The position numbers and the translations under genes were made by a program. The notes beneath the pieces were generated by a model that made no database searches, was not told the origin of the DNA, and saw nothing but the letters and a program-made list of their open reading frames with translations. This document shows positions 27,556 to 55,088 of a stretch of DNA of 64,000 bases, piece after piece (position 1 is the stretch's first letter; each line of letters starts with the position of its first letter). Source of the DNA: Brucepastera parasyntrophica. Lineage in GTDB: Bacteria; Spirochaetota; Spirochaetia; Treponematales; Treponemataceae. The stretch covers positions 2,692,501-2,756,500 of the forward strand of contig NZ_CP084606.1 of NCBI RefSeq assembly GCF_022376835.1, written 5' to 3'.

Positions 27556-27585
27556 ATAGTCAAATAATTAAAATTATTTGACTAT
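27556..27585 (+). repeat. AT-rich inverted repeat with a 14-bp stem
   Basis: ATAGTCAAATAATT, loop AA, then the exact complement. Part of the palindrome cluster before the TPR gene. Confidence 0.8.
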
Positions 27586-27599
27586 TTCCAATTGTAAGT

Positions 27600-27641
27600 G
27601 TTCCTGATATACAGAATTATCTAATTCTGTATATCAGGAAC
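27600..27641 (+). repeat. Inverted repeat with a perfect 20-bp stem
   Basis: GTTCCTGATATACAGAATTA, loop TC, then its exact complement. It starts 14 bases after the preceding inverted repeat. The stem is AT-rich and is not followed by a T-run. Confidence 0.85.
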
Positions 27642-27787
27642 TTTAATTAACGGAGTATAAAAATATTTTCAGATATGCAGAAATAGCTGAAATATCTGCG
27701 GTATTCTGCTATATTATATATATTCAAGTAGATTATTTGCAGAATGTTCTTTTTTTTTGCGAATGGCTCAAGTGTTGGAGATTTTTC

Positions 27788-35485: not shown

Positions 35486-36175
35486 ATGGTTGAAATACTT
35501 GAAGTTGAAAATGAAATACTGCTGGGCCTGCTGACTGCCGAACTCGATACATTACACATCGAGTATCTGGTCAAAAAAATAAACACAGCTGTCCTGCCAA
35601 TAAACAAAGGCACAGACGCCTTTGCCGTCATTTTTTCCGATGCGGTAAACAAAGAACGGATAATCGAAATTTATTTGGATTTAGCGGGACTCCCAAAAAA
35701 TGAAAAAGCTGCAGCGGAAGAACGAACAGAAAAAGAACGCAATAGCATAATGAAAAATATCCTGCTGATTCTTGCGGTTCTGATCCTGCTTTTCATAATA
35801 ATCGCGCAGAGAAAGTCACTGAATGAAATCAGGCGGGTCCTTGAAGTCCGGCATGAACCTTTTATATACAAATGGTCAGAAGATTTGCGGGAAGTAAACA
35901 CTTATCTCGAAATAAGCAATTATCATTTTGAAAAATGTATTGATAATGACCGGAACGGGATTTTTGAAACAGTCAGAATATATTTGCCGAATAAAATGAC
36001 TGTTATACAGGAAGATAAAAATCAAAACTACTTTTTTGAAAAACAGACAATTGTAAAAGATAATGAAATAATCTGTGAAAGCATATCAACGAAAGACAAT
36101 GGTTTTTTTGACCGGACGGTTTATTCGTGGCGAGGGTTTAATACCATGAATAAGTCCAGCTTTGTTTTTTTATAG
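35486..36175 (+). CDS. Hypothetical protein with DUF2007-like start and one membrane helix
   Basis: About 229 residues. The first 75 (LLTAELDTLHIEYLVKKIN, DAFAVIFSDAVNKERIIEIY) look like the small DUF2007 signal-transducing fold; a Lys/Glu-rich segment and one membrane helix follow (ILLILAVLILLFIIIAQ), then a soluble domain of about 110 residues. The last 17 residues (SWRGFNTMNKSSFVFL) are coded by repeat copy 2, so the native C-terminus may have been replaced. An upstream ATG at 35438 is possible; no strong ribosome site favours either. Confidence 0.55.
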   Translation: MVEILEVENEILLGLLTAELDTLHIEYLVKKINTAVLPINKGTDAFAVIFSDAVNKERIIEIYLDLAGLPKNEKAAAEERTEKERNSIMKNILLILAVLILLFIIIAQRKSLNEIRRVLEVRHEPFIYKWSEDLREVNTYLEISNYHFEKCIDNDRNGIFETVRIYLPNKMTVIQEDKNQNYFFEKQTIVKDNEIICESISTKDNGFFDRTVYSWRGFNTMNKSSFVFL

Positions 36176-36250
36176 GTTCTATGGTATTAAGCCCGAGTCC
36201 AATTCCACGGGAGAACAAACTACCCCGTGCGGAGTACGGGGTAGTTTATT
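36121..36250 (+). repeat. Mosaic structured repeat, copy 2
   Basis: TTATTCGTGGCGAGGGTTTAATACCAT pairs with ATGGTATTAAGCCCGAG, enclosing a TTTTTTTATAGGTT half-module. CCACGGGAGAAC and a strong hairpin (TACCCCGT/ACGGGGTA) end at TTTATT. The preceding gene's stop lies inside it. Confidence 0.8.
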
Positions 36251-50308: not shown

Positions 50309-50480
50309 TTTATTCGAGGCGAGGGTTTAATCCCTCAGACCGAAGGTCTGCCCTGCTCTGCGGCGGTTTTTATAAAAACCTATAAAAACGTTAGTTTTTG
50401 TAGGTCTCATGGTGTTAAACCCGAGACCAATTCCACGGGAGAGAAAAATACCTCGCTGCTCTGCGGCGAGGTATTTTATT
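50309..50480 (+). repeat. Mosaic structured repeat, copy 3 (long form)
   Basis: TTATTCGAGGCGAGGGTTTAAT; a CAGACCGAAGGTCTG hairpin module shared with copy 1; the AACCTATAAAAAC/GTTTTTGTAGG hairpin shared with copy 4; GGTGTTAAACCCGAGACC; CCACGGGAGAG; and a final hairpin TACCTCGC/GCGAGGTA followed by TTTTATT. The dCMP deaminase stop codon lies in that end. Confidence 0.85.
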
Positions 50481-51035: not shown

Positions 51036-51115
51036 TACGCCGTTCCTTTTACTTACTTTTCTGATGTAAAAAATTAACCAATTCGTTGCATCAGAAACAC
51101 TTACGACCGGAAACA

Positions 51116-51139
51116 GTCAAATTATCCGGATAAGTTGAC
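51116..51139 (+). promoter_or_regulatory. Operator-like palindrome upstream of the lon promoter
   Basis: GTCAAATTATCC and GGATAAGTTGAC: 24 bases with one mismatch per arm, ending 5 bases before a consensus -35. An outer inverted pair, TTTCTGATG and CATCAGAAA (51058-51097), lies just upstream. It is not the HrcA CIRCE element. Confidence 0.45.
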
Positions 51140-51144
51140 TATAT

Positions 51145-53569: not shown

Positions 53570-53602
53570 TACGGCCCGCTGAGCGGAATAACACAAAAAA
53601 TT

Positions 53603-53627
53603 ACCGGCGGGAAATATTCCCGCCGGT
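53603..53627. terminator. Bidirectional terminator between lon and the radical SAM gene
   Basis: A perfect 10-bp stem (ACCGGCGGGA with TCCCGCCGGT) with a 5-base loop, T-run on the plus side and A-run on the other. It serves converging genes. Confidence 0.85.
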
Positions 53628-53653
53628 TTTCATTCGGTCTGAAACAGATTTCG

Positions 53654-54927
53654 TCAGGTCCGGAGTGTAAGCGTTGTATAATCAAGATATTTATTTTCCA
53701 GAATAATTTCCGAAACAAAGGCTGCGAGTTTTTCATTCCCGAGAATATCCGCAATCGAAATACTGTTTTCCGGCTTATTATAACACTTATAATAAGTCTT
53801 GTTATAAGTGTTATAATAAGCTGCGCAGGCCTGTTCAAGTTTTGAGGTAAGAATACCGGTAAGCGGAAACGGACCGTTTCCGTCCGGGAGATATTTTTTC
53901 CGCCTGAGCGCCGTCCGCTCGGTTTTCAGCCATTCCGCATAGCGGCCTGTTGCCTTTTTCAGCGGGGCCGTGTCTGTTTTATGGAGCGAATATAAATTTT
54001 CCATGTGAATGAGCAGCACGAAAAGGCTGTCCGGCGGGGCAAGCAGATCGCGGTATACACGGTGAGGCACCATTTGGGGCATTCCCATCTCTTCCAGCAT
54101 TTTATTCCGGCCTAGTATGAGAGGATACTCATATGCCGGAAGCGGAATGCCCGACTGCCTGTTTTCCCTGTATACCATGTCATACAGGGACAGTACGTCA
54201 GGGTAATTATGTTTTACTGTTTCAACAAAAAGATCTTTCTGGCAGCCCGGCCTGAGAGTCAGTCCGCCCGGATATATAAAATCAGCGCCGGCCTCCCTTG
54301 CCGCAGAAAAAAGGCGCTCCGTTTCTTCCGGCGTGCCCGTAATTCCCGGACAGAGGGGCATTGCATATATTCCGCTGGAAAATCCCCTCTGCTTTGCCTT
54401 CCTGATAATTTCGAGTCTTTCCTGCGGCGGAGAGGCTCCCGGTTCAAGAACAGCGGCCTTTTCCGGATTGGCGGTTGTCAGGGTAACGCCGACAAGAACA
54501 TGGGGAAACTCTGCAAGTATATCAAAGTCGCGGACAATGAGATCGTTTTTTGTAAGAAGGACTATCGGCACTCCTGCCGGGGCAAGAAGCTCAAGTGCTT
54601 TTCTTGTCAGTTTCAGTTCTTTCTCGAGGGGCTGGTAAATGTCAGTTACTCCCGAGCTCATGCACAGAGCGCCGTATTCACGGGCTGTAACTTTTTTTCC
54701 ATGTCTGCGGACACCTGTTCAGGCAGATTGGCGCGGACGCAGATATCCCGTTCAAAATCGCCTTCCACATAATATTTTTCCGCCCGGCCGTCACAGTAAC
54801 GGCATCCGTGGGCACAGCCCCGGTAAGGAGCGAGTACCCGGTACAGGGAAATTAAAAACGATTCGGGCAGCATTGACCGGGTTATGCCGGTTTTTGCTTC
54901 AATAGTTTTATAAGACTGAAGGCTCAT
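53654..54927 (-). CDS. Radical SAM protein, spore-photoproduct-lyase-like (frameshifted)
   Basis: A 424-residue radical SAM enzyme. The cluster motif is CAHGCRYCDGRAEKYY near residue 38, then VPIVLLTKNDLIVRD and HVLVGVTLTTANPEKAAVLEP as in the SPL/DUF-type group. The frame is lost at the T7 run 54692-54698; one more base changes EKKLQPVNTALCA-stop to EKKVTAREYGALCMSSGVTD. An odd AT-rich insert near the end (AYYNTYNKTYYKCYNKPEN) comes from a DNA palindrome. The start abuts repeat copy 4 and has no ribosome site; Met-19 is the next choice. The function is unknown. Confidence 0.8.
53773..53821. repeat. Palindrome with a 20-bp stem inside the radical SAM gene
   Basis: GCTTATTATAACACTTATAA, a 9-base loop, then its exact complement ending CTTATTATAA-type. 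It is in frame and codes Tyr/Asn/Lys repeats absent from the family core, as expected of a mobile palindromic insert. Confidence 0.75.
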
Positions 54928-54931
54928 CCGT

Positions 54932-55088
54932 TTTATTCGAGGCGAGGGTTTAATACCTCGCTGCGCTGCTGCGTTTTTTATTAAAACCTATAAAAACTTT
55001 AATTTTTATAGGTTCCATGGTGTTAAACCCGAGACCAATTTCATGGGAGAACGAAACACCTCGCTGTTCTGCTGCGAGGTATTTTATT
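54932..55088 (+). repeat. Mosaic structured repeat, copy 4 (long form)
   Basis: TTTATTCGAGGCGAGGGTTTAATACC, a CTCGCTGCGCTGCTGCG module, the hairpin AACCTATAAAAA/TTTTTATAGGTT, GGTGTTAAACCCGAGACC, CATGGGAGAACG and a last hairpin ACCTCGC/GCGAGGT followed by ATTTTATT. It separates a lipoprotein gene from the radical SAM start. Confidence 0.85.

Follow-up and report, generated by a model that had tools for sequence, protein, structure and literature searches.

Short palindromes are scattered through bacterial genomes, and their source and function are mostly unknown. The known operators of ROK-family regulators, such as TTTGTTC-N11-GAACAAA, have a left arm rich in T and a right arm rich in A (PMC4856308). 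The palindromic elements of Rickettsia are 105-146 bp long, have terminal inverted repeats, and often lie in genes; Correia elements can carry a binding site for IHF (PMC2229807 for both). REP elements are palindromes of 20-40 bp that occur in high copy number and usually bear a GTAG or CGTC tag (PMC3733652). The palindrome described here lies inside a gene of the spirochaete Brucepastera parasyntrophica, in a 64-kb stretch of DNA (the window). It resembles the rickettsial elements in form; its sequence places it best among ROK operators, as a putative dispersed copy.

An earlier note had reported a hairpin with a 20-bp stem and a 9-base loop in the coding region, more AT-rich than its surroundings. 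Indeed, all 20 arm bases are paired, and the GC content is 22%, compared with about 49% in the flanks. Together with 27600-27641, 53773-53821 is the longest perfect hairpin in the window. The coding-strand RNA folds with -25.3 kcal/mol (z = -6.0), and none of 200 shuffles was equally stable. The palindrome can be divided into three 25-bp modules shifted by 12 bp, and this 12-bp period leaves two of the three frames open on each strand.

Table 1 Features of the palindrome and its host gene (positions in the window) and the eight copies in the genome (positions in the genome)
Feature	Position	Strand	Remark
Host ORF, C-terminal part of radical SAM protein (PF04055)	53654-54661	-	insert spans residues 281-297 (335 in total)
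N-terminal part of the same protein	54658-54927	-	other frame; has CxxxCxxC
7-base T run (A run on coding strand)	54692-54698	-	frame change point; independent of palindrome
Palindrome, left arm	53773-53792	.	GCTTATTATAACACTTATAA
Palindrome, loop (9 bases)	53793-53801	.	TAAGTCTTG
Palindrome, right arm	53802-53821	.	perfect reverse complement of left arm
Operator-like module 1 (25 bp, RCTT-N17-AAGT)	53773-53797	.	1 mismatch to ACTTATTAYNNNACTTATNATAAGT
Operator-like module 2 (25 bp, 12-bp shift)	53785-53809	.	1 mismatch on - strand
Module 3 (25 bp), imperfect	53797-53821	.	3 mismatches on - strand
Copy	27983		intergenic, between convergent 3' ends
Copy	650711-650759		intergenic, ROK repressor promoter
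Copy	1202714		intergenic, between glnN and arsR (behind glnN)
Copy	1411209		intergenic, between oxaloacetate decarboxylase beta gene and small membrane-protein gene
Copy	1602574		intergenic, between ABC substrate-binding gene and PfkB sugar kinase, 68 bp before latter
Copy	1645277		intergenic, before MerR-like gene
Copy	2150957		intergenic, 37 bp, about 130 bp before SSS symporter
Copy in window	2746273		49 bp; the only one inside a gene (radical SAM)

The host protein is distant to the PA0069 and Rv2578c groups, and a search of genome contigs revealed only distant relatives outside the spirochaetes. As the earlier note had stated, the palindrome leaves the reading frame unbroken near the C-terminus, where its codons (281-297) read AYYNTYNKTYYKCYNK. 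The gene as a whole is not intact in the assembly, being split by a frame change at the T7 homopolymer, and the palindrome is not the cause of this break. The genes for an SSS symporter (L075 5227-6695) and a type III glutamine synthetase (L071 5181-7273) are frame-split as well. Because these genes of this genome (one contig, completeness only 88%) are also split, homopolymer errors in the assembly are likely.

To judge the insert, we collected radical SAM homologues from the same family and order and aligned them; its absence was thus assessed at 35-59% protein identity. In the homologues from G050, G011, G002, G055, G036, G033, G047 and G054, the preceding helix is almost directly joined to a conserved motif, N-(A/E/P)-(R/K)-L. 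Between these two elements the window protein carries AYYNTYNKTYYKCYN, and the G021 homologue has an unrelated linker of similar length at this site. Since the homologues that have the C-terminus lack the inserted residues, these are not conserved, and the palindrome is, as read from the alignment, an insertion of about 16 codons in a variable linker.

A search for further copies showed that the genome (3.24 Mb, one contig) holds exactly eight loci, which are near-identical. With up to three mismatches allowed, the 25-bp pattern had 29 matches, all inside these loci, compared with 0 and 1 for the reversed control, and a sequence-profile search of the genome returned the same eight loci, with no decayed, partial or intermediate copies to E = 1. 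Single-arm matches in this genome were discarded, as their frequency was at the level of the reversed control. The copies are 37-49 bp long. In each of them the half-site ACTTATTAYAA is repeated in 12-bp steps and two or three 25-bp dyads of the form ACTT-N17-AAGT overlap; a change in one arm frequently has its counterpart in the other, e.g. ACAGGAC...GTCCTGT at 1645277. The repeats flanking the copies are no longer than at random positions, i.e. there is no target-site duplication. No exact match to ACTTATTAYAAYACTTATNATAAGT was present in viral contigs.

Could the hairpin work in RNA, as a stabiliser of mRNA 3' ends, an attenuator or a terminator? It is very stable on either strand and lies near the 3' end of its gene, next to the convergent Lon gene. 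However, a T-run is missing and the stem is almost pure A and T, a different repeat, GC-rich and terminator-like, comes after Lon (about 53601-53633), no match was found in Rfam, and it is the sequence that is conserved between copies, not structure alone. We therefore regard an RNA role as highly improbable.

The likeness to rickettsial palindromic elements proposed in the earlier note holds in part. The locus shares with them a palindrome inserted in frame at a tolerant protein site, several copies, and homologues that lack it. Kinship was not supported: the spirochaete palindrome is 37-49 bp instead of 105-146 bp long, is unrelated in sequence and phylum, matches the dyad of ROK operators, and is intergenic in seven of eight cases, so the recurrent insertion into genes is absent (1/8 copies). 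At 650711 and 1602574, an in-frame reading would require an unlikely extension of the gene at its 5' end. The insertion into the radical SAM gene looks like an accident of the landing place and not like a protein-coding habit of the copies.

The sequence of the palindrome is very probably that of a ROK operator. The copy at 650711 follows TTGACAGG, and its end is 8 bp from the ATG that starts a ROK repressor gene (650768-651781), which is followed by an MFS transporter gene. The promoter reads TTGACAGGACTTATTATAACACTTATTATAAG..., and the palindrome fills it from just past the -35 box through the -10 region, between TTGACA and ATG; the window copy has no such position. In our searches this repressor was the only ROK regulator of the genome, the other PF00480 match being a kinase-sized ORF. 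A clear -35 box placed for repression was seen at the ROK copy only, and promoters were not evident at the window copy, 27983 and 1202714.

The same dyad was then sought in related genomes. Among 273 other genomes of the family, there were five scattered matches at two mismatches and a single one at no more than one mismatch (G004 2925596); a search of the order with at most one mismatch gave no match beyond this site. It reads TTGACATACACTTATTAAAATACTTATAATAAGTGTATGAATG, in the layout TTGACATAC, ACTTATTAAAATACTTATAATAAGTGT, ATGAATG, and a ROK repressor gene, again followed by an MFS gene, has its promoter here; the ROK repressors of the two genomes are 33% identical. Further ROK promoters contain the 25-bp dyad: ACTTTATAAAACACTTTTATAAAGT (G011), ACTTAGTAAAGATGGTTTATTAAGT (G067), ACTTAATAAAGTATATTTATTAAGT (G308), ACTTATCTAAAGACTTTAATAAAGT (G379) and ACTTAGTAAAGTACTTTTCTAAAGT (G036), and weaker ones were found in G353, G390 and G021. 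In these eight genomes, the dyad often stands directly after TTGAC. The dyad scores were reached by 0-7 of 300 dinucleotide shuffles each. As a control, we used the upstream regions of 14 pfkB orthologues: they scored at most 10/15, which was never reached by fewer than 37 of 300 shuffles, and none of them stood out. The motif thus occurs in ROK promoters of nine genera, including Brucepastera. About 8 of the 21 ROK-gene upstream regions examined have no dyad; many of these genes lie immediately behind another gene and seem to form a subgroup apart. In our reading, the 25-bp dyad is the predicted ROK operator generally used in the order. In L099, the region upstream of G004 1512458 (- strand), TTGACA is soon followed by a perfect palindrome of 42 bp (CTATATATTAAATATACTTTTTAAAGTATATTTAATATATAG) that precedes a further ROK-type gene.

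Like the operators of NagC/Mlc, XylR and RokB, the site is an AT-rich dyad, with one half-site rich in T and the other in A, that covers the promoter of a regulator or of its target, here that of the ROK-MFS operon. It differs from them in having two or three overlapping 25-bp dyads that form near-perfect palindromes of 37-49 bp, in that its binding is predicted, and in that eight near-identical copies exist, one of them within an unrelated coding region.

These comparisons suggest that the window palindrome is probably a dispersed copy of the genome's own ROK repressor operator, amplified and tolerated in a gene. The operator would be the ACTT-N17-AAGT dyad, two or three of which overlap at a 12-bp shift. 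From its position over the spacer and the -10 region, a repressor bound at 650711-650759 would block transcription of the ROK-MFS operon, and a ligand, probably a sugar, would release it from its own promoter. In this lineage the operator may have been copied to seven other places, presumably by operator duplication, and one copy would have landed in frame in the radical SAM gene, at its poorly conserved C-terminal linker. The repressor may also bind the dispersed copies, including that in the window. The latter is taken as a tolerated copy because the linker around it is variable and no promoter lies within reach; its effect would be at most accessory, possibly that of a weak decoy. As judged from the genomes searched, the eight-fold amplification is specific to this genome. 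No copying mechanism is visible, with neither target duplication nor partner element at the copies.

The copies outside the ROK promoter allow two readings: they may be neutral or selfish copies, or sites added to the regulon. If all eight were working operators of one regulon, the radical SAM site would regulate that gene or its neighbour by roadblock or DNA looping. This would fit those sites that precede the PfkB sugar kinase by 68 bp, the SSS symporter by about 130 bp and two other genes by about 80-110 bp, and PfkB kinases and symporters are partly gene types under ROK control, as in Thermotoga XylR and others (PMC3750489). But some sites lie by convergent 3' ends or within the radical SAM C-terminus, the pfkB site is not conserved in relatives, and an operator made by point mutation would add no residues to the protein. 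A single working regulon is thus improbable, and no conserved regulon beyond the ROK-MFS operon was seen, the pfkB orthologues in relatives having no site.

Alternatively, the palindrome may be a small selfish element resembling MITEs or REPs, or a spirochaetal equivalent of the rickettsial elements, which moved through its own hairpin or with the help of a transposase acting in trans and reached the ROK promoter by chance. The likeness among the copies of this genome exceeds that of ROK operators between genera, seven of the eight copies lie in intergenic, often post-terminator DNA, and the genome has a second, MITE-like palindromic family of about 50 copies. We nevertheless consider this explanation unlikely: the copies lack a terminal signature of their own, neither a related transposon nor older degenerate copies were found, and a chance landing would leave unexplained why the same dyad stands at the same place in distant ROK promoters. 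Like Correia/NEMIS elements and other bacterial MITEs, the palindrome is a short dispersed repeat with a possible protein-binding site that could alter nearby genes; unlike them, it lacks terminal inverted repeats distinct from the dyad, a TA or other target duplication, and a partner transposon. Assignment to the MITEs failed on the missing target-site duplication and on the absence, to E = 1, of an autonomous relative with the same termini, and assignment to the REP elements failed on the copy number of eight and the absent tag.

With a dispersed ROK operator as the preferred reading, it is conceivable, though rather doubtful, that the operator itself has turned into a dispersed, copyable unit of DNA that connects, or attempts to connect, new genes with the repressor, and that has even entered a coding frame. 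In a limited search of the literature we found no account of a dispersed operator of this sort. If the dispersed copies are bound, they would exemplify the growth of a regulon by copying of whole operators, as opposed to site-by-site evolution of bases, and the absorption of an operator copy into a protein. With a repressor site, some of the short palindromes found across bacterial genomes would also gain a concrete origin.

The second palindromic family has units of about 110 bp (ATAGTCAAATAATTTAAATTATTTGACTAT + TTCCGATTRTAAGTG + TTTCTGATATAAAGAATTAGCTAATTCTTTATATCAGAAAC + RTAACTTAAAGGAGTATA) at around 50 loci of the genome, each with two palindromes and terminating in AAAGGAGTATA. Two members lie in the window (27556-27660 and 51058-51140). 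The ends of the units, TATAGTC... and ...GAGTATA, resemble the terminal inverted repeats of MITEs, and in several copies the position of AAAGGAG would let it act as the ribosome-binding site for the gene that follows. Among 59 further genomes of the family only one weak match with three mismatches was detected, and Rfam contained no match.

Two further sets of repeats were observed. At L071 4440-4860 (genome ~1202139-1202559), three tandem repeats of ~215 bp, each with a TATACTTACCGGTAAGTATA-type palindrome, stand upstream of the genes for an arsR-type regulator and a P-type metal ATPase; these palindromes are probably operators of the arsR-type regulator. In the window, intergenic DNA at 54940-55080, 50445-50477 and 36134-36194 contains repeated GGGTTTAATACC(TCGCTGC) / GCAGCGAGGTATT sequences, which perhaps form a third small repeat family.
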